Assembly: GCA_028554795.2 (NCBI GenBank)
Contig: CM068832.1
Span: 86,638,511 to 86,702,510 of the forward strand
DNA length: 64,000 bases
Source of the DNA: Sinohyriopsis cumingii
Lineage: Eukaryota; Mollusca; Bivalvia; Unionida; Unionidae
Direction of reading: 5' to 3'
Shown here: positions 6,395-64,000 of the stretch, piece after piece
Position numbering within the stretch: position 1 is the stretch's first letter
Layout: each line of letters opens with the position of its first letter
Made by a program: the position numbers and the translations under genes
Notes under the pieces: generated by a model
The model's database searches: none
Told to the model about the DNA's origin: nothing
Seen by the model: only the letters and a program-made list of their open reading frames with translations

Positions 6395-6448
<54 letters not shown>
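6395..6448 (+). repeat. (TA)n microsatellite
   Basis: 27 uninterrupted TA units. Confidence 0.97.
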
Positions 6449-6450
<2 letters not shown>

Positions 6451-8890
6451 GTAACGTGTTTCTTATCAATCCGTTCCAAAATCGTTAACTCTTTGACAGA
6501 CCATACAGTGTCAGTAGCACGACGTTGACCACACCATCTCAGGGTACACTTGTATATAGATACGGAACAATTTTTTTTCCGACTGACTGTAACTGTGCCT
6601 GAAGTACATTCATTATCTGAGCAACTTGAGATAATCTGCTATAGAATGACATTAGCCAGCCCTAATCCAATTGGGCACGTGATTTACCGTTGAATGCAGA
6701 TATGACTAACGAACATCGCGCACTCATTTATGAGATCGCTCTGTACTTAGTTCTTTTCATCCGGGATTGCATTAACAATTCCTACGTGGACTGATGGCCT
6801 GTTCCTCAGCAATACTCAATATACAAATCAGTTCCAGTGAATTGTATCTGTAATTTTGAAAATAACGTTCGTGGTGTAAATAATAAAGATGTCTGCACAT
6901 GTAAGTCCAATTTTGACCTATCTTTGATATTGTTAAAATCGCTCCCATATACTTTAATAAAGTGCTGTATAACACGTTTTTGAACCGAGCTATTAATGAC
7001 TCTCTCATATACATCTATATTAATGTCATCTGTATTTTACATATTCGACTTCCTAAATGTGTTATCAAATGGTCTTGATCACTGAAACTGAAACTATAAG
7101 GTTGTGTACTAAAATTGTCTAAGAATATATCTTGGTTTCTAGTTGTCTGTCTGTCCGGTCTGAAAAGGTCTTTTTTAGCAATACAATCAGTCATTTTGGA
7201 ATCATTTTAGGCCGAGTTGGGGCTTCTTGATCAGACTCAAATAGTGAAAATGGAAGCTTGAGTAGAAAGAGCAGTGGTTCCGTTATGTTATGATTGTTAT
7301 GGCTATCACTGCCCATGCTCACCTTTAATCTAGCATTTGCCAGAGGTGGCCCTCCGAAGGAAGAATGATAAATGCTACTAAATGTATCTATTCACATTGA
7401 ATAACGTTGGAAAATTAGTTGAAAATGTCAATGTTGAACATTTTATATCGTTTTGGAGGACACATCATCATCGAAGATTATCTCTCTTCCTCAATGTCAT
7501 GCTGCTGGTAACTAATTTCGCTTACGATATATAATATTAAAATAGTAACAATCATGACTGAGTTCATATATCAAGCTGTTAGATGGAAACGTTGAGTTTT
7601 ATTATGTACAATGTTATCATCACTGATAACAGATTAAGGTGGTTTGCCAAATTATTATACATACCTCGATCTCAATAAAACGGTAAATCTAGGTGTAACA
7701 TGCTTAGGTTAAAGAAAGATTTGCAAACACGTACTACATATTATATCAATAGGTAAAGGAGATCAAAATAATAAACTTTGTCGCATGGAAACCCTGTGGA
7801 AAGATTTTCACTTCAACTTCCAAATATATCCACGTTTTTAAAAAAAATTGTTATTGACTTCAGGTTACATGGTAACCCCTGAGCACATATCAACGTAAAA
7901 AGCATACATGTACACGTTTTGACCGACGCTCCGGTCATGCACAAAAATAGTTTGTATCCTAATTTGAAGGTTTTGTTTTATAGACCAGAATTTTGAAAAC
8001 AGTATATGCTGATTATGTCCTAAATGTGAACGTACTGAATCAATATGTTCAGTTTTTAAACGTTTAATGGACCAAATTTCTAACTTCACAACGTGAAAAC
8101 GTAATTTTGCTTGTATTTGTTTCCATAATTATCTTAGACAAATATATTATATAACGAAACAATATTCGTTTGACCACTCTCATTTATTCGAAACTTATGA
8201 AATTCATGATATTTTATCTCTCATTTTGCAATCACTACATATGCTCATAGCATAAACATTCCCACCCATATTCCATAGACCATCTAAATGTTTGATAATA
8301 AAATCTGCAAATTAATATGGTAAGGAAAGTCAGTTCAATTACAAAGATGTCAAGTGAATAATTGAAATTATTTAAACATTTGTATACGAACATTATTATT
8401 TAAAATGGCATTAACATTTTTGAAGGAACAACACTTGCAAATGACCGAGCTGGTCGTTAGAACCTACTAAAAGGAAAACATTTTTTTTATCAGTATTAAA
8501 GTCCAAGGAAATTATAACGTTTGGATATAAAAAAAACAGTGTATATTGGAAACGTATGCACATTTCACTTTGAAAGGTACTTTTGTATATTTTTTTATAT
8601 TGAAATGTTAGATGGGCTTTGATAACATAGATAGGAAACAGTGAGATTTTATCAATGACTGAAGTTTTGTATACAATACATATCTCTCTAGCTCAATGAT
8701 TCTGTAATTTGTTAATTATCTTTATCTTAGCAATACAAAAATACCTTTTTTACATTTAATATACTTTATTTCATTATTTATAGATACTATTCTACTGAAG
8801 GTGGAATCAATATGTATAACTGTCAGTTTTATTTGTGGCATTTTTGCTACAAAGGCATTTATTCCTCATTACAGTCCGTCATGTGAAATA
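6449..8890. other. AT-rich intergenic DNA, nothing assigned
   Basis: Only short chance frames with no motif. No repeat structure stood out by eye. Confidence 0.5.
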
Positions 8891-14942: not shown

Positions 14943-16738
14943 ATGGAGAAATACTTCAGTCTGAAACTCTGGAAGAGAAACTGTTAAATGAAAAGCAAGG
15001 AAGCCAGCGAAAGTACAAAGAAGATTACATCGAGTATGGTTTCATCGCTTCGGATCTGAAGATGCTCAATTGCCATTCTGTCTGATCTGCAACGCAGTTT
15101 TGTCGAACAAGGCGCTTGTTCCCAGTAAATTGAAGAAACACTTGGAAACAAAACATCCAGCTGTAAAGGACAAACCAAAGGAATACTTCGAAAATCACGT
15201 GGTTCAACAAATTAAACAAGCTAAGAAACTTACGAACTGCATGAAGCTGAACGAAAAGGGATTGATTGCAAGTTATAAGTTCGCTAAGGTGTTGGCAAAG
15301 CGTAGGAAAGCGCATAAAGAGGCTGAATCAGTCATTGCGCCAGCATTAGGAATTGTCGTTGAAACTATGCTTGGAACCGATGCTGCCGAAAACGTAAAGA
15401 AAATTCGTTTGTCAAATGACACGATTTCGCGCAGAATTGACGACTTATCGTCAGATTTAAAGGATCAAAATTCGAAGCACCTGACGACGAATTGTCTCTG
15501 CTGTGGTCTCTTCGAGTTGATGAATTTACAGACGTTAGTGGAAAAGCTCAGCTGCTGGCTTTTTTCGATTCATAAAGGATGGAAACTTCGTGAACGAGTA
15601 CTTATTTTCCAAACATTTGGAAACTACGGCGAGACGCGAAGACATTTTCCATTTGGTGAATGAAAACATTTTGCTCTTCAGCCTACAGTGAAACAACTGT
15701 GTCAGCGTTTGCACCGATGAATGTCTTTCCATGCAGGGAAGAAATAAGGGATTCGTCACTCTCGTGAGCCAAGAAAATCCAAACATGTTAGTTGTTCACT
15801 GTATGATCCACATAGAAGCTCTCGCCTCCAAATCTTTGCCTAAAGATTTGGAGTCTGTTCTGAGCCAAGTTAGTCAAGGCGTAAACTTCATCAAAGCTCG
15901 ACCGCTTCTATCTCGACTTTTCTCTCAACTCTGTGAAGCTATGGATTCAGACTACACATGTCTGCTGCATCATACCGACGTTCGTTTTACTTTCAAGGAG
16001 AAAAATGTTAAAGCCTCTCGTCCTTCTCAAGATTGAAGGGATTTCCTTCTTGGAGGTTGAAAAAACAAACTTTGGATTCTCTGTTCATGACGAAATCTGG
16101 TGGCTGAAGGTTCAATTTCTCGCCGATTTATTCAACAAATTAAATTCGTTGAATTTCAGTCTTCAAGGACCATCGGAAAACATCATCACTGCAAAATCAA
16201 AACTGAAGTCATTTGATGAAAAGTTGTTGCAAAGTAATGTCTCAAAGGGAGTCCTCGACTGCTTTCCTACTGTCAATGAATCTCATTCAAACAAAAAAAT
16301 CATCCTTGAAATTCAAGACACACTGAGAGACCTACAAACGGCACTGATCATTACTTCCACATCATATGCAAGCGATGAATATGGATGGGTGATCAATCCG
16401 TTCGGAAACAACGAAACTACAAATCTTACAACCGAGGAATAAGTAAAGCTCATTCATTCAAAAAAAGATAAAAATTTTTTCAGTCAACATTTCTCGAAAA
16501 GAGCCTGGAAAAGTTTTGCATCTCAATCAAGAAGTCATAGCCTGCAATCAGTTCAAAACCAATCAAAGTAATTCTGCCATTTGTGTATTCGTGGTTTTGT
16601 GAGTTTGGATTGTCAGCATTGACTGAAATCAAATCGAAAAAGAGAGAGACGCGTCTTAAAATCGACGAAGAAATGCCGACTTTGGAGCCTCGCTTCAATC
16701 TCATTTGCTCTCAAAAGCAGGCACATCCTTCACATTAA
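14943..16738 (+). pseudogene. hAT transposase relic (BED finger, ZBED5/SCAND3-like)
   Basis: Domains lie in order across changing frames. DYIEYGF is followed by a BED-type zinc finger (CLICNAVL... with KKHLETKH, about 15085-15150) and a KDKPKEYF linker. The catalytic-core start is TDECLSMQGR near 15715, followed by HCMIHIEALASKSLP (about 15798-15842, the family's C-x2-H-x-EALA block) and LLHHTDVRFTF near 15962. The helical WLKVQFLADLFNKLNSLN block is at about 16100-16155. The C-terminal dimerisation tail runs RFNLICSQKQAHPSH to a stop at 16736-16738, which is the usual end of this family. At least four frame changes or stops (near 15060, 15480, 15690 and 16440) inactivate it. The first catalytic Asp survives in TDE. 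Family transposases are about 600 residues, so the relic is near full length but broken. Confidence 0.88.
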
Positions 16739-21984: not shown

Positions 21985-23995
21985 TTTGACCTATTAGTTT
22001 TGGAGTTTGCGCATTGTGCCATAACATTGAATTTTGAAAATGGTCTTTTTTAGAGAGCGGACATTTTTGCGGTACTCTCGCCATGTGCCGTCTCACTGCA
22101 ACCTCTCCTGTCAACCACGCATTGTGCATGTATTTGAAGTAGAGGCTTTGGATTTTCAGGGAGCCTAGTTTATTCCAGTGCCCCCATTCTCTTCTCCAGT
22201 TTATGTGTATATTTTCTTTTTCTCTTATGCTTTTAATGCCCTTTGTCGTATCCTATCTCATCCAATTATCAGTCAGTTTTTCTTCCCTATTCCAGAGCTC
22301 CTTTTTGTCTCTATATTTTAATAGTTATTCTTTTATATTCCTTTGATTTCTGGGTATTTCCAATTGTTTGGTTAACTTATTATTTCTATATATGTCCCTC
22401 CTATTTCTTAATGTGAATCCATAACGGTATATATAGATACCGTCCCATGGAGATTGTGGTTCTGTTCTTAATCTTTTAAACCTATTTAAAATATTTGAAG
22501 CTGAAAGTAATACCGGGCTGGGGAGTGCAACCCCCCCCCCCCCCTTTCCTTAGCCTTATATAATGTTACTTTATTTATATAGTCTAGTTTAAAATCCCAC
22601 ATGTATTTTATTATACGTTTATCTATTGTATTTAATACTTTGTTACTAATATCTATAGATTTTAGTATGTAATTTAGGTGTGCATACATGTATGTTTTTG
22701 CTACTTGCACTATTTCCATAAGGCAAAGTGGCGATAGTGCCCAGATGTTCACATTTTTTTCAATTGCTTGTTTTATCTGTCTACATTTTTCCTTCTCTTC
22801 CTCTTCTCCAAAGTAAATTCCCAATGCTTTGACCTTTCTCTTAATCAGGTGTTGGGGTAAACCTGGATGGTTTCCTCTCCAGCTCCCTCTTTTAATTATT
22901 TCGGTTTCGTCATGATTAATTTGAGATCCTGATGCTTTTCCAAATTTGTCGAATTCCTTGATCAGGTATGTATATATGTAAATGAATATGAATCCTTTAT
23001 AAAGTCTGTGCAATCATCAGCGTGCTGCATCATTTTAACTTCTTCTTTTATGTTTGGTATTTTGATGCCTTCAATGTCTTTGTTTAGTTTAATGCTTATG
23101 CTTAAGATTTCAATTGCTATTACATATAATAGCATAGATAGTGCGCAACCTTGTTTCACTGATCTTTTAATTTCAAATTTACCTGTTTTTGCTCCATTTA
23201 CCTGTACCCTTGAGGTTATTTTGTTGTACTGGATTTTGGTCCATTTTTAAAAGTTGTTTCCAAATCCAAATTTCTCTAGTACTTTTTTTATAGAGTTGTG
23301 TTCCACTCTGTCAAAAGCTTTTTCCCTGATCTTAAAGTACCATAGCAACTTTTTGTCCACTGTCACTTATATGTTCAATAATAGTTTTAATACTTACTAT
23401 ATTGTGTCGTATATCTCTGCCTTTTGGGCCACATGTTTGGTTGATATTTATAATTTTCCCCATTCCGTTTTATTCTATCCGCTAAAATTTTGCTTAATAT
23501 TTTATAATTCGTGTTAAGGAGGGAAATGGGCCTCCAATATTTTAGTTCTTCTCTATCTCCTTTCCCTTTGTATAGTAAGGTTATTAACCCTTCCCTCATG
23601 CTTTCTGTCATTACATCATCTCTAAGTAAAATATTATTGTACAACCATTCCAAAATGGGCGACAACTCACCACATAATTTTATGTAGAAATCGGTGGTGA
23701 GTCCATCTCCCCTGGGGATTTTCCTTTAGTAAGACTTTGAATACTTTTCACTGTTTCTTCTTGCGAGATGAAATCATAACATATGTCCTTATGTTCTGAT
23801 GATATCATCTCGCACTGGATATCTCTTAGATACTCTTCAATTTTGTCGTCAGCAATTCCCTGCGATCTGTATAGATTAGTGTAGTATTCTTCAAAGTGTT
23901 TTAAGATTTCAAGCTTATCGGTTGTTTTCTTATCTACATTAACTTTTGGACTATCCATAATTTTTCTCCCCCTCTCCTAATTTCTTCACGTTAAT
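21985..23995 (-). pseudogene. LINE reverse transcriptase ORF2 relic
   Basis: On the minus strand, in order: HFEEYYTNLYRSQG (end of the linker after an endonuclease domain that is missing here); SIQSLTKGKSPGE (RT motif 0/1 region); LITLLYKGKGDREELKYWRPISLLNTNYKI (about 23500-23600, given as its recognisable N-terminal RT block with YWRPISLLN); and GCALSMLLYVIAIE (normally GCPLSPLLF), followed by QHADDCTDF where the family has Y/FADD. Then come ALGIYFG, a thumb region with NTIDKRIIKYMWDF and KAKERGGGGL. The C-terminal part has KCPLSKKDHFQNSMLWHN (about 22030-22085), matching the Cys/His finger of L1/Tx1-like elements with one Cys lost. Frameshifts near 23160-23390, 23010 and 23670 and stops below 22486 inactivate it. 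Confidence 0.88.
22525..22552 (-). repeat. Homopolymer C tract (G on coding strand) within LINE ORF
   Basis: A run of Cs on the plus strand at 22530-22543 falls in the KERGGGGL segment of the RT relic. It is probably slippage of Gly codons and is unrelated to the 3' C tail. Confidence 0.7.
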
Positions 23996-43374: not shown

Positions 43375-44175
43375 CTTCTCTTTTAACAACTTCAGCAGCC
43401 CACGTACAGTATGTCCAGAAACTTGTTCAAAGGGACAAAATCATAAACATTCTTGAAATGATTCCCTAACAGTAAACAATAGTGAAAGAATGCCTTAATC
43501 CCATTCTTTCTCCGTATCAAAATAATATTTCCGAATAATATTTTTCAAAGTTTGATTAAATCTTTCTAAAATCCCTTGGCTCTCATGGTGATAGGCAAAA
43601 GATTTGAATTGGTGGGTGCCAAATTGGTACATAACTTGCTCGAATATTCCACCCAAAAATTTGACCCATGATCAGATTGAACATGTTTGGGAAGGCCAAA
43701 CTGAGTAATAAAAATATGTATGAAAGCTTTTCCTATTGTTTTAGTTTTAATATTCCTCAAAGGAAATTACCTCTATGAATCTTGTTGACGCGCACATTAT
43801 GGTCAACAATTAGTGGTTACCTGTCTTGGTCTTAGATATGGGAACTATACAATCAACCATTTTTCTGCTAAATGTTTCGTCAAATGCAGAAATACAGGTG
43901 AGCCTTAGATATCGTCTGTTTGGGTTTTCCTACCATTTGATTAGCGTGAAATGATCTGCCGTATTTATAAATATCACTTTTAACTTTAAGTTTTGTGTCA
44001 ATAGAAGTGATTCAAGAGCTTGTAGCAAGTCTCAATAATACCTAAATGACAAGCCCAGACTTCAGTTTGATAGATCACTGACCACTCGTCACCAGTAGGT
44101 ACCTCAGGTTGTCTCCATTTTCTTATAATAATCTCTTTTCTAATGGAATAACAAACAGGTACTTCAGTGCTCATG
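43375..44175 (-). pseudogene. Ty3/Gypsy integrase remnant
   Basis: Minus strand, in order across frames: WACHLGIIETCYKLLNHFY (zinc-binding HHCC region with GHLG-like block, about 44000-44060), then the weak KWLIVIVPYLRPRQ where the family has IVDCVGPLPK (first catalytic Asp lost). NIKTKTIGKAFIHIF follows, then TQFGLPKHVQSDHGSNF (second catalytic Asp kept, about 43650-43710). KDLIKL-KIL is where the family has ERFNQTLKN (third catalytic Glu changed). The downstream stretch is LLLGNHFKNVYDFVPLNKF, the usual A-x-R-E-S-Q-x4-FSPFELVF block. Multiple stops. No matching RT was found immediately upstream. It directly abuts inverted unit B. Confidence 0.85.
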
Positions 44176-49059: not shown

Positions 49060-50095
49060 AACTATTTATCTGTCTCTATCCTTATCTGTGTTTCTCTCTA
49101 CCTAAATATCTGAATTTCAGTATATGACTATCTATATACATATATATGTGTATATCCTTACATGTGTATATATCTATCCTTATCGGTCTCAATACATATC
49201 TGTCTCTCCTTATCTGTGTATCTATCTACATATCCTTATATGTGGTTATATTTAACTATATATCTGTACTTGCATATATATCTATATATATGCCTATATA
49301 TGTGTCTATCCCTATATGTCTACATTTTTATATGTCTAACCTTATCTGTCTATCTACCTGGTTATTTGTCTATCCTTATCTGTCAAATTACCTATCTGTT
49401 TATCGGTATATGTGTAATTACCTATCTATCTGTGTATCCTATTATGTGGTTTTATCTACCTTTCCCTATCATTATCTATCTACTTATTTATCTATTTATC
49501 GACCGCTCCGGTGGCCTAGAGGTTAGAGCGTCCGCCTCGGATGCGGGAGGTCGTGGGTTTGATCCCCGGCCGAGTCATACCAATGACTTACAAAAACGGT
49601 ACTAACAGCTGCCTCGCTTGGCGCTCAGCATTAAGAGGTTATTGTTAGGACTGGTCGGCCCGGTGTCAGGATAATGTGACTGGGTGGGACATCATGCTAC
49701 CTGTCTGCGGCATGATGCCCCAGTGCTAGACATCACTATAAACTGCCACATTGCAGACATCGTAGCGATATGACTGAAAAATTGTTAAAGCTACGTTAAA
49801 AATCCAAATCACACATCACATCTATTTATCCCTTTCTTTTCATCTATATACATATATATCTGTCTATCCTTAAATGTGTATCTACCTATCTCTATATATA
49901 TATCTTTACCTATATATGTCTCTATCTTTATATATCTAACGATCTATATGTCATTCGCTATATGCATATCTACCCATCTGTCTGTTTATATCCTTATCTC
50001 TATATCTACCTATCGGTATGTATATCGTTATTTTGGCTATCTATATACATATCTAGATGTCTGTATTATTATATGCGTATCTATCTACGTTACAG
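49060..50095 (+). repeat. Degenerate (TATC)n tract split by a SINE
   Basis: tatctatc/ttatctgtctatc units fill 49060-49500 and resume at 49820-50095. The SINE at 49501-49819 splits one original tract. Tyr/Leu/Ser-rich frames here are not genes. Confidence 0.9.
49490..49830 (+). mobile_element. SINE family 2, intact, 11-bp target duplication
   Basis: The element is 49501-49819. It has an A-box-like ggtggcctagaggttagag, a B-box-like gggtttgatcccc and a family body with gtgtcaggataatgtgac, gggacatcatgctac and cgtagcgatatgactgaa. It ends with aatccaaatcacacatcac, with no poly-A or simple repeat tail. atctatttatc flanks it exactly (49490-49500 and 49820-49830). This is the reference copy for those at 9987, 26937 and 54645. 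Confidence 0.93.
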
Positions 50096-56207: not shown

Positions 56208-57395
56208 GTTTCTTATCCAAATGTAGATTTTCATAATATTCTTCAAATTTATATTTTTATTTCTTTAAAAAATAAACTTAATCAATTAAATAACATTTAA
56301 CCTTATTTGGTAACTGTTTTGCTCGCGTTAGAGGATGGGCTTACGGCCGTTTTATCTTCTTCATTTTCATTTGTTTGTCCGTTCGTTTTGTTTGACAGTC
56401 CCCATGAGATAAGAGATGAGACCGAGGCTCCAGCCCGTACTTGTCGGTGCACACCTCTACGCGCGCGGTGTCCAGTTTAATTTAAATGTTGCGTTTGGTC
56501 ATACTTTTAAAGACAATATCACTTGTTGTGTCGTACCCAATGCAAACAGTTAGAAATTGGCATATCGTCAATTGTTTTAATGTTAATCAGCGCATAGGTG
56601 CCCCTTACCCTCTCTTTCAAGATTATTGTCAAGCCCCATCCGCGAAATTGAAATGCAGGATACTAGATTATCAGAAAGGCAACTTTGTTTGTCAAAATCT
56701 CGATCTTGTCTGTTAACGTTATACTATTTTATTTCTCTGAGTGTTATCATTTAACCGTCGGTTGTGAATTTCATTACATTTCGCAAGTGTTCTGTTTTGA
56801 ATGACTGTTCAATGGTATTTTGATCATTAACCATAGCAGATATGTCTAGACTGACCCAGGTCCGTAATGCAAGTGTTCCTTTGTCAGTGTAGTATTTTCG
56901 CTCTAGATCAAGATCTGGGTCAAATGTTGTATTGCATTTTTGTATTCATACATACTTTAACATTCATATAACATATATACTGTGAAATAATACAGGGAAA
57001 TCATATATATATATGGGGGGTGGGGGTGGGGGTGTTTATGTATGTGCTTGTATGTGCGTGTGTGTATGTGTATCTGTTTTAGGCGAGATAAGTCTGTCTG
57101 TTATACATGCATTCATAGCTACATACATTCATACGCACATAATTACCCGCGAAAAAAATGCTTGCATAAAGATCGACGAATAAGTTTGCTGGTAATCAGG
57201 TCATTGAGTTTCCTGTTGGCCACAGAATGGTTATTTTCTAAGCTGTCAAGTAAATATTACGAGACTAACAATCAGCTGGGAAACAAAATGTGATCATACA
57301 GGGAAGTGAAAATTAAGCAGAGAGTATAAGCTATGCAGGCTAAATACATATGGAACTTCACGATTTATATAAACTGGAAACCCTTGAATAAATGA
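56200..57395. other. Intergenic DNA upstream of the Cys-rich gene
   Basis: A frame at 56486-56716 is unsupported. A g-rich gggggtgggggtgggggt run lies near 57016. The first exon of the 57.4 kb gene should be upstream but was not identified. Confidence 0.4.
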
Positions 57396-57427: not shown

Positions 57428-57940
57428 ATGATCAAGATGTTACTTGCGTCAATACTACCTTTTGTATGCATTGTGATGTCACAAGCTGATAATAATAATA
57501 ACGAATACGGTGAGCCTTTTCCGAAAATCCCAGAAATCATCGACGACACTATTACCGCTGGAAATACCAAGTGTCGATCAGACAACAAGTGCGGATATCA
57601 TGGTAATACTAGCTATAAATGGTGCTACACTGACAGCAAAAACAATTGGGATTACTGTTGTACTACAGTATGCGGAACTAATGGATATTCATATTTCTGG
57701 TGTCGATCAGGAAATAAATGGCAATATTGTGCTAATGATCTATCCAAAGATGTCGAATGAAGACAATGTCTTCAGACACGTCCATGTGGTCTGCACAACG
57801 ATGAAGGAAACAAAGCCTATTACTGGTGTTATGTTGATTTAGACAATAGATGGGGCTATTGCTGTTCACCGTTTAGTATTTGGTGCTACGTTGGGAGAGC
57901 ATCGTTCAGCACTAAATTGGATTATTGTACAATAAATTAG
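57428..57940 (+). CDS. Secreted Cys/Trp-rich repeat protein, one in-frame TGA
   Basis: A single reading frame of 170 codons runs from the ATG to TAG at 57938-57940, interrupted only by TGA at codon 111 (57758-57760). Residues 1-20 look like a signal peptide (MIKMLLASILPFVCIVMSQA), and an acidic, Asn-rich linker follows to about 45. Three related modules come next: CGYHG...YKWCYTD...WDYCC (55-78), CGTNGYSYFWCRSGNKWQYC (82-101), and after the TGA CGLH...YYWCYVD...RWGYCC (120-146), with a terminal WCYVG...DYC (152-167). The W-C-Y and W-x-Y-C pairs recall fibronectin type II or kringle-like folds, but the spacing fits neither and I do not recognise the family. The module after the TGA keeps every Cys and Trp, so the stop is recent or is read through. 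AATAAA overlaps the final codons. A decayed paralogue is at 5247. Confidence 0.7.
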
Positions 57941-59468: not shown

Positions 59469-59645
59469 AGGACACGCGCTGTGCTCGTGCTGAGATTCAA
59501 TGCGTTAAACAAGAACATGGTTACCGATCCATTATTGTAATTAGGCTGAAGAATGGAGACAGGTACTCAGACGATATTGATGTCATAGTTAGAGAAAATA
59601 TTAGACCATGTGTCCATTCGGAACCAGTGACATTTAAATTTTTGT
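59469..59645 (+). pseudogene. Unidentified C-terminal frame in the relic
   Basis: An open 58-codon stretch without an ATG reads ...RSIIVIRLKNGDRYSDDI... and ends ...HSEPVTFKFL before TAG. Composition is protein-like and unlike its AT-rich surroundings. It may be the end of a further element gene, converging on the ATPase. I do not recognise it. Confidence 0.35.
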
Positions 59646-60079
59646 AGCATATCTCCCAACATTAAATTCGATCTACTTCAAGTAAAACACAAATGGTACA
59701 TACGTCGCTGATGATATAGAGGTTGACATTAGCAAATTTAATATATGTGGAAAATTGGTTTTGTTAGGAGATATCAATCTTATATGTATGTTGAAAATGA
59801 TTTGATATAAAATAACAATAATGCTAATTGGTGTAAAATTTGCCAGAGCCATCGCAATTTCGGATTGCTTGGTCGAAAATAATACCGGAAATAGTGACTG
59901 AAACGAAATATGTAACATAATTGACTTAGCGTGAGATATAGATTTCAACAAATTGCTTTCGATTTCATAATATTGTACTCATCAGGACGTATCTGTTTAA
60001 CAGTGTGCTACAATCTTTAAGTACCGGGGTCTGACAAACTTACTTAAATGTAAAGCTTGACCATGTTTGACAGTAAAAC

Positions 60080-60765
60080 ATATGGACAAATAAGAGCAAC
60101 ACTATATGCCCTTCCAATTTTGTTCCAAGAACGACTCGGTATCTCGACCGCTGATCATGTAAGTGTATTGTTATAATTCCATGCGGGGTTGACTGAGCCT
60201 GACTAAATACATTTCTAAACTTAATTCTGTCCATATCTTCACTGCACCAAGTCTGACGAATATTTCGCACAGTATGTTTATCAACCCCATTAAACACATC
60301 AATAATATTGCAGTTATCTCTGATCACTTTTGGTATTTGGGTATATCGCTAAGTAACATAAATTACATCTGTGTTTTTATGTCTACCGGATGAAATTGTT
60401 CTCGCTTATTCAGCATTACAACGCCCTATACAACTAAAGTATTAATAAATCCATCAATATAATCTACAGACGGCGCATCACTGATATCTGTAATAAATTC
60501 AATATCATCTTCTTCGTTTTCATCCAACAACTTTGCGTTTTCATTACAGTCTTTCAGTACATCGTAGCATCGCTGGTCATCTACATACGGATCTACTAAA
60601 TACAATTAATTCCATTTCAACCACTTCATTATCAACTTAAGTTTTGAAAAGTGCTTACTAGTTCCGGATGGTCCAATTATAATCATTCGGATATAATTTG
60701 GTAATGCTGGATGATGCTTGACCGGTTATCACTTTTTTGTTGCCGGAAAATCAAATGACATCCAT
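60080..60765 (-). pseudogene. Packaging ATPase relic (A32/FtsK-HerA type)
   Basis: Minus strand: a start near 60765-60759 (MSFDFPATKK in one frame), IRMIIIGPSGTSKH (Walker A region, about 60650-60690), KWLKWN, and VDDQRCYDVLKDCNEN. An acidic segment then leads to FITDISDAPSVDYIDG, followed by NTLVV and a stop where Walker B (hydrophobic-DD) is expected. After that come KVIRDNCNIIDVFNGVD, VRNIRQTWCSEDMDRIKFRN and a PHGIITIHL end block. These match the packaging-ATPase pattern of Polinton-type elements, about 230 residues. Walker A has lost its last Gly and the Ser/Thr after Lys, and Walker B is destroyed by a stop. At least three stops occur. It could not hydrolyse ATP. Confidence 0.72.
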
Positions 60766-60788
60766 GTTGTAGAAATATAATAAACAAT
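60766..60788. promoter_or_regulatory. Very short divergent intergenic gap, putative shared promoter
   Basis: Only about 23-27 bp (AT-rich, with atataataaacaat) separates the opposing start codons of the ATPase and PLA2-like relics. A bidirectional promoter is inferred from layout alone. Confidence 0.35.
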
Positions 60789-61263
60789 ATGGATTTACAT
60801 TGTGTAAAATGCAAGTGGACTAACCACAATTACAACACAAAATAACACATCAGCAGCTACGGGCGAGTGTGAACGATGTGGTACAAAGAAATGTAAGTTT
60901 ATTTCAACAGGCGGATTTATAAAAAAGGGAGGTGATATTGCCGTCCAGTTAACAAAACTCCATGGGCGATCCAGGATAAAAAGACATCTTCCAGGATATA
61001 ATGACTGTGGTCCTGGTGCTCGACTTGATATCAGGCTTGATAACCAAACTCAGACAAAACCTGGTGAGTATCCAGTAAACGCTATTAATAAAGCGTGTCC
61101 CGCTCATGATGTAGCTTATAACAGTAAATATCATAGACATATTGCAAATGAAAAATTAATTCATGCGTTAAATTCCATAAAAAAAATCTTTCAAAGAATC
61201 ATTAGCTAATTGGTGAGTAAGATCTGCAATGAAATGTATGCTTGTATTAGGAGCTGGTAATTA
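60789..61263 (+). pseudogene. Zinc-ribbon plus phospholipase-A2-like protein relic
   Basis: The ATG at 60789 opens MDLHCVKCK; after a frame change near 60810 the second half of the zinc ribbon reads GECERCGTKKCKF, together a CxxC...CxxC ribbon as in DUF5679-type proteins. A Gly-rich linker leads to the PLA2-like domain: LPGYNDCGPGARLDIRL (Ca-binding loop, about 60989-61040) and INKACPAHDVAY (catalytic His-Asp, about 61084-61122), with RHIANEKLIHALN after it. An A8 run at about 61178 shifts frame, and the C-terminal helix ends ...LGAGN at 61263 after one TGA. In Polinton/adintovirus relatives and parvoviral VP1 such domains act in membrane escape. The active-site residues survive but the frame is broken twice. 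Confidence 0.75.
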
Positions 61264-61289
61264 ATCAACCGATTATTATTATAATGGAG

Positions 61290-62090
61290 TCGATTTATAT
61301 AGCCAAGTATGATATTGGAAAGGTATAGCAGCGATTAGTAAACACGCTGAAGCAACAGGTGTCGAACGTTCTACTGCTGAAAAATGGTTAGCACGACAGC
61401 CAATATGGCATTATGCAAATTTATCTACTACGACCTAAAACACTTCAGTACGCTCATTTTGATGTTAGCGTTCCTAATGAAGTTCATCAGGCTGATATTT
61501 TATTTTTACCACATGATATTATTAAAAGTGGTAGACGTCGATTAACGTACAAATATGCGCTAACTGTCGTTGATGTTGCGAGTATATATAAAGAAGCTGA
61601 GCCGTTATCAACAAAGACTGCAACTGAAGTAGCTTCTGTGTTTGAACGAATTTATCGACGTGGTGGTCTTCGATGGCCACAGCTGCTACAAGTTGGTCCT
61701 GGTAAGGAATTTCACGGCGTAGTATCATTGTTGATGAAACGACATAACGTTAAAACACGACAAGGGCATACAGCAATTCATCGCGATCACTCAATTGTTG
61801 AACGATTTAATCGAACACTTCCTGAGCGGTTATTTGAAAATCAGTTTGCGAAGGAAGTAATTTAAGACAAACGATCTAGCGAGTGGGTTGCAAGATTACC
61901 AAGTGTGATAGCTGCATTAAATAACGAAATTTCTCAAACAACTGCCATGAAACCCATCAATGTAGTTACAAAAAATGGAATTCTTTTATACAATAGGCCT
62001 ATTGTTGGCAATGATACAAATAACGTAACGGTTTTGAATAATCAATGTGATCTCCATGATACTAAAGACAATGACTTCTGCATGGTGTAG
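61290..62090 (+). pseudogene. Retrovirus-like (rve) integrase relic of Polinton type
   Basis: An N-terminal helical part is visible out of frame (YWKGIAAISKHAEATG, EKWLARQPIW, 61310-61410). The core is open from 61413 to a TAA at 61863: VSVPNEVHQADILFLPHD (first catalytic Asp), KYALTVVDVASIYKEAEPL, FERIYRRGG, LLQVGPGKEF and IHRDHSIVERFNRTL (catalytic Glu). The second catalytic Asp, normally in the V-D-x-G-x-E/R-F block, is Gly here. Beyond the TAA the same frame continues (EWVARLPSVIAALNNE...) to a stop at 62088-62090. The c-integrase of Polintons is the best match; a Ty3/Gypsy integrase would show different flanking motifs. Confidence 0.8.
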
Positions 62091-62270: not shown

Positions 62271-64000
62271 CACTTATATGAAAATTGAGGGATTTTAATT
62301 TCCCTGCAGTATCTATCAGTATATAATTTAATGTTAAAGTATATAAGATTACGAAAATGCCAAGCAACATCTGACCCATTGATCAAGATCTACAAAAGCA
62401 CACTGACAATGAAACTTTTCCATTAAGGACTGAGGTCAGGCTAGACAAATGTACTACGATGAGTGATCAAAACTCTATTGTGCAGTCAGTAATTTAGAAT
62501 ACAACACGTGCAGGACATAATGAAATCAACAATCGAGCTATTACGGTTGAATGATGATACGCAGAGCGATGAAAATATTACAAACTTAACAGATAAGGTC
62601 AAGCTTTTTGGAAAATTAAGTTGTTTTTCTGATAACTTAGTCTCTGGCATTTCGTGGTCGCGGAATGTGCTTAACAAGAAGCTTTACTGAACCGAATAGG
62701 TACACCTATGCGATAAGAAACATGAAAACAGTAGAGGGTATGCGAATTTCTAACTGTTGGCAGTAGGTACGACACATAAATGACATTTTCTTTAAAATTA
62801 TAACCAAACTTAACCTTGAAAGTAAATTTGACCCCATTCAAAGAGGGCAATGGGGCTCCAGAAAATCAACTGGAACCCTGACCAAGGTCAGTGATAACAC
62901 CAGCCATCAACCGAACATAATTATTGTTTCTGTATTGAGCAATAAAGGATTTGTTGTTGCAGGGACACTGTTTGGTCGAAAAGCTAATTTTGATCGTGAT
63001 GCGGGTGATTATGTGTCATTATAATGTTAGACCTTTGACATTTACGATTAACAAACCTTTAAAACCAAAGTGAAAAATGTCCTTTCTGCAGTAGTCTTTT
63101 GCCATGCAACATCTGTGTTGCTAATGATGAATCCATTTAGTGAATTTAATGTTGTCAAATAGTTTTTGTATGACGCCATAATTGGCATATTTTGAGACAA
63201 ATAACAGTCGCGATTGCTATCCCAGATAAGTCAATCTACAAACTCATTTATATGTGAATCTAATGTCAAGTAAGTGGTGAACTTTAAAAACAAACCAGTG
63301 TATTCAGAAAAGGTACCCCAGGGGAAACTTTAAACGAATATACCTTTTTCTTTTGCATTCTTGTACATGTCAGCCGCGTCACAATTATATTAGAGAGGAA
63401 AATATATAGCACCCATAAATGCATTTGATAGGAGAAGAAAATCAGATAAAGAAATTTAATATTCCTAGGATTTTGATTTTGTGAGAGATTGCTACTGCAG
63501 TTCATAAATAATCAAATTATGAAAATTAATTAAGTTGTTTACTTTATTTAAACAAATATTAGAAGTAGAACACATAAACGGATCTTATAAACATGGTTTC
63601 CATAATGTGGCATGCAAAGCATCAGTCTTCTTAAAAGCACTGTTTTGAACCTTCAAAACAATGCTGCAATCTTTGTAAATATTTTGTCTTGAAGTGTACA
63701 GAATCATAGACAATATGCTTAAGCGTACAATAATTTTTTCTTTGCAATTTAATATCCATAATCAGTTAAAACAAGTAGGATAATAGTTATTAGCCAAGTA
63801 AAATTACCTATTTGCCATTGGATAGGAAAAGTTAGTACTGTAATATCAATAAAACTAACGGGTAAAGCTGCTTTAACTATAAGACATAGAGTAAATTATG
63901 TTTCATTATTAATATGTATGACCATAATGTCGATACCGATAACACATAGTGGAATACACTAAACAGTGTTACTATCCACTGTGAGTCATGTTGAGGTGCA
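62270..64000. other. AT-rich intergenic DNA, nothing assigned
   Basis: Overlapping frames on both strands near 62486-62690 are short and motif-free. Confidence 0.45.

Follow-up and report, generated by a model that had tools for sequence, protein, structure and literature searches.

Evidence for a Polinton-type relic with packaging ATPase, zinc ribbon-PLA2 and integrase genes in Sinohyriopsis cumingii

Polintons, also called Mavericks, are virus-derived, self-synthesizing DNA transposons in which the polymerase PolB is the expected partner of the integrase. The catalytic residues of this integrase family form a D,D35E triad. The PLA2 family PF08398 is found also in the VP1 protein of parvoviruses. 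The Polinton gene set is given in PMC4028283, and PMC10294476 lists Mavericks among the DNA elements found in all of the mollusc genomes that it analysed. PMC5803895 describes two Mavericks from Spodoptera whose genes include a protease, PolB, an rve integrase, an A32-like ATPase and CAP, a protein that contains a PLA2 domain. Adintoviruses are defined in PMC11071296 by an OTU-PolB, a recognizable hexon and a chromodomain integrase.

Three broken genes side by side

We analysed a 64 kb stretch of S. cumingii DNA, referred to throughout as the window. An earlier sequence-only reading had placed an ATPase, a zinc ribbon/PLA2 gene and an integrase next to each other, and tblastn of their relatives bore this out: a stretch of 2 kb holds three decayed genes. 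The motifs that had been quoted (a Walker-A-like block, CVKC..CERCG, a PLA2 motif and an rve integrase core) are all present in the sequence. In the left part of the interval no gene was recognized, and three pieces stayed below all Pfam cut-offs (top score DUF2108, 18.2 bits versus 29.6). The features are as follows.

59469..60040, no strand assigned: no recognized gene; decayed element or host DNA (three pieces scanned with Pfam)
60127..60765, minus strand: relic of an A32/FtsK-HerA-type genome-packaging ATPase (tblastn with P0128-P0133; start inferred by eye)
60789..61264, plus strand: relic of a short gene with DUF5679 (zinc ribbon) and a PLA2-like domain, PF08398 (Pfam, tblastn)
61284..62090, plus strand: remains of an rve (DDE) integrase whose type adjoins PolB in contig L001 described below (relatives, alignment A2, tblastn; start inferred from relatives)

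All three genes contain stops and frame changes, as judged by tblastn of relatives, and identity between their main pieces and proteins in the databases is 54-81%. When 16 relatives were compared with the 64 kb window, the best match of each had an E-value from 1.8e-23 to 5.9e-82, and weaker secondary pieces of the same relatives ran from 1e-16 down to 1e-3. As a control, the 4 kb region was shuffled 50 times in blocks of two bases; four relatives used as queries gave a single match at E<=0.01. The inferred start codons of the ATPase and PLA2 genes diverge and are separated by 23 bases (there is a second candidate start for the ATPase 4 bases farther inside). The PLA2 stop is followed after 19 bases by the inferred integrase start, both on the plus strand. 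Such spacing favours a single compact element.

The Walker-A-like block and the VRNIRQTWCSEDMD block are parts of a single broken minus-strand gene with in-frame stops and at least one frame change. Taken together, tblastn with P0132 and P0128 spans the gene in two frames: P0132 is 61% (60755..60399) and 80% (60405..60259) identical to the relic, P0128 57% (60539..60399) and 76% (60405..60127). The Walker A of the relic is degenerate relative to P0132. Of the 7 candidates for a query piece covering 60043-60348, six matched at E<=1 and five at E<=1e-3; the best reached 3.3e-28, with 76% identity over 73% of the piece, and P0131 comes from the freshwater mussel Sinanodonta woodiana. The window pieces of this gene reached no Pfam cut-off when scanned alone, and its identification therefore rests on the relatives. 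Pox_A32 (PF04665) is precomputed in three of the six, and P0128 passes it on a fresh scan (24.5 bits, cut-off 22.8). Through these relatives, the locus contains the A32/FtsK-type packaging ATPase expected of a Polinton.

The CVKC..CERCG motif and the PLA2 motif belong to one broken plus-strand gene. The tblastn pieces reveal one frame change, inspection by eye suggests another near the start, and there is a single internal stop; the gene keeps a 133-residue open stretch that includes the motif residues, and its PLA2 motif still shows the His-Asp pair. The PLA2 piece scores above the Pfam cut-off for PF08398 (30.4 bits versus 23.9). All seven candidate proteins were relatives at E<=1e-3 (best 2.8e-31). 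They are 133-169 aa long, in a search that took in only lengths from 0.55 to 1.75 times that of the query and so would have passed over longer or fused relatives. PF08398 was found in all seven and DUF5679 (PF18930) in five; we call this small Cys-rich domain a putative zinc ribbon, on the strength of its CxxC pairs. The two proteins lacking it are P0001, which starts past the first Cys pair, and P0006, which has a different N-terminus. The pairing of DUF5679 with PF08398 is thus a property of the family and no accident of this locus. The relic ends in GAGN at its C-terminus, as do five of the seven relatives, which suggests that the short length of the protein is real. A structure model of the family was poor (mean pLDDT 51.1, pTM 0.31), only the first 40 residues having a pLDDT of 64-84.

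The sequence-only reading had singled out a zinc ribbon-PLA2 gene beside an integrase as the most unusual association in the window. The pairing is not peculiar to this locus: it occurs in sequence databases, it recurs among the relatives, and the insect Mavericks carry a PLA2 domain together with the ATPase and the integrase, so that the association has already been described (PMC5803895). Literature searches by the domain names DUF5679 and PF08398 found no paper, passages of PMC4061559, PMC3671162 and PMC11071308 contain nothing on a zinc ribbon-PLA2 fusion, and we found no paper joining adintovirus, PLA2 and integrase. We regard the siting of a short zinc ribbon-PLA2 protein between a divergent ATPase and an integrase as mildly interesting.

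The integrase relic changes frame near its N-terminus and has two internal stops. By tblastn, identity with P0008 is 67% for the main piece and 59% for an N-terminal piece. Of 881 candidates for the main open piece, 871 reached E<=1e-3, the strongest having an E-value of 1.4e-57. The best 120 of these 871 were fetched and include proteins from the sea slug Elysia marginata (P0076), the coral Oculina patagonica (P0086, P0122) and two Thiodiazotropha MAGs (P0059, P0064). Across the three genes, the relatives with a named source form a small and mixed set. Scanned alone, the integrase piece falls under the Pfam rve cut-off (21.2 versus 32.6 bits); the relatives P0009 and P0013 pass it. P0009 also resembles the bacterial IS481 (3.4e-15) and IS3 (1e-10) transposases, below the NCBIfam cut-offs for both. 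A PDB sequence search with the integrase returned two retroviral integrases, with E-values of 0.53 and 0.92. According to alignment A2, the relic has a substitution at one position of the expected catalytic triad of acidic residues.

A further integrase, 59% identical to the relic, lies on L001, a contig of 5,112 bp assigned to an Oligoflexia MAG. Tail to tail with it are open frames, one of which matches the polymerase model DNA_pol_B_2 (2e-15); the contig starts inside the integrase. This adjacency links integrases of this type with an element that bears PolB. The rve (DDE) integrase expected of a Polinton is present at our locus, with a relative that adjoins PolB. L001 is perhaps eukaryotic or viral contamination of the bacterial MAG.

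Missing modules, element ends and the rest of the window

tblastn with three PolB pieces from L001 detected no PolB in the 64 kb window, which stops 1.9 kb past the integrase. When all five L001 proteins were compared with the window by tblastn, the integrase alone matched, and hence no PolB relic was found. Pfam scans of twelve flanking pieces recognized no protease, hexon or penton (none above cut-off; decayed genes could escape). The tail piece of the integrase gave no chromodomain match in Pfam or NCBIfam, where decay could mask one. NCBIfam gave no match above cut-off, the best PHROGs match (E 0.0089) was to a family of unknown function, and a scan of GTDB genomes returned one locus. The three genes were not found together on any contig, and the IMG/VR viral contigs gave zero relatives when queried with the genes of this locus or their relatives and with the L001 PolB.

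The relic is enclosed by an inverted repeat of approximately 535 bp.

56467..57001, plus strand: left arm of the inverted repeat, 72% identical to 62298-62835 (BLAST)
62298..62835, minus strand: right arm, pairing with 56467-57001

At the BLAST edges of this repeat there is no target-site duplication and the 12-base flanks differ; the true ends may differ or lie elsewhere. Twenty-six other dispersed or tandem pairs in the window pass the same filter, some of them inverted and of similar length. We set aside the idea that the pair is a terminal inverted repeat because of its level of identity, its unmatched flanks and these other pairs. Since dispersed pairs of similar size occur elsewhere in the window, the two arms are probably interspersed repeats. 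Some stretches of the repeat resemble decayed coding sequence.

Several other parts of the window drew attention. Two minus-strand stretches resemble Polinton integrases. One, at 43504-43893, is a decayed integrase-like stretch with weak similarity (best E 2.7e-4), which looks like an integrase of the Ty3/gypsy retrotransposon type; the other, at 6447-6617, resembles the C-terminal tail in several relatives at a level that is not significant (best E 0.037). An open frame of 110 aa on the plus strand (57428-57760) has a signal-peptide-like start and repeated Cys/Trp motifs, shows no Pfam match above cut-off, and is possibly one exon of a secreted protein of the host. The 197-aa open frame at 15070-15663 (plus strand) presumably resembles hAT/ZBED-type transposase-derived zinc finger proteins, and the 175-aa frame at 22486-23013 (minus strand) presumably the C-terminal portion of LINE reverse transcriptases. 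A SINE-like peptide signature, GGLEVRASASDAGGRGFDPRPSHT, lies at 49162-49605 (plus strand); we assume it to be common in mollusc, notably cephalopod, genomes. Like this signature, the style of the microsatellites in the window has a molluscan, perhaps cephalopod, look.

Nature of the element

Three module genes, each identified separately and adjacent in a compact layout, strongly support a Polinton-type relic. We conclude, with a probability of roughly 0.93, that what lies here is a Polinton/Maverick copy, truncated and inactivated, in an animal genome. As such it is ordinary, one more fossil from a known virus-transposon group. In an intact element, the element's own protein-primed PolB would do the copying and the A32-like ATPase the packaging; the PLA2-like protein would aid passage across membranes, and the rve integrase would carry out insertion into the host's DNA. 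These presumed roles are drawn from what is established about such protein families.

It is unlikely that the locus is an endogenized adintovirus in the strict sense defined above, rather than a Polinton transposon. The packaging ATPase and the rve integrase are module types common to adintoviruses as well, and PMC11071296 places adintoviruses within a broader polinton-like consortium. However, no PolB was found in the window, the integrase tail piece shows no chromodomain match (though decay could hide one), and the IMG/VR viral contigs yield nothing for the genes of this locus or their relatives. Neither of the tested features, PolB and chromodomain, establishes an adintovirus assignment. 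The sequence-only reading had proposed a Polinton/adintovirus-like relic; the three adjacent module genes uphold the Polinton part, and the adintovirus part is not established.

A much smaller probability attaches to separate insertions that ended up as neighbours, such as a parvovirus-derived PLA2 beside an unrelated integrase. PF08398 does occur in parvovirus VP1, the window is rich in other repeats, and all three genes were not seen together on any contig. Against such a history, the gene ends lie 19-23 bases apart, and such close packing characterizes viral and Polinton genomes rather than independent insertions. Moreover, the short PLA2 relatives found in the length-limited search, five of seven with the GAGN end of the relic, are unlike the long parvovirus capsid protein. 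Least probable of all is a host gene domesticated from the element and still functional, for although the PLA2 gene retains its open stretch with the motif residues, stops and frame changes run through all three genes and an expected catalytic residue of the integrase is substituted.

Comparison with known systems

The Polinton/Maverick copy described here can be set beside four systems. Contig L001 has an integrase that is 59% identical to the relic and has PolB as its neighbour, whereas no PolB neighbour was found for the integrase in this window. With the PLA2 domain of parvovirus VP1 the relic has a PF08398 match in common, but its neighbours are of Polinton type and no parvovirus gene was recognized among the scanned pieces. 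Adintoviruses, as described in PMC11071296, share the rve integrase and FtsK-type ATPase modules with the locus; their PolB and chromodomain were not found here by tblastn of the window and by the scan of the integrase tail.

Sf Maverick 1 and 2 resemble the locus in combining an A32-like ATPase and an rve integrase with a PLA2-domain protein. According to PMC5803895, they have eight small genes in tandem on one strand, whereas the ATPase gene is divergent here, and their CAP protein has 258 aa, compared with 133-169 aa for the PLA2 relatives of our locus, five of seven of which bear an N-terminal DUF5679. We tentatively suggest, at somewhat less than even odds, that the locus represents a distinct invertebrate Polinton lineage, with a short stand-alone zinc ribbon-PLA2 gene between a divergent ATPase gene and the integrase gene, unlike the published tandem insect Mavericks. 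If intact copies keep this gene order, they would help to trace the movement of PLA2 among parvoviruses, insect viruses and Polintons.
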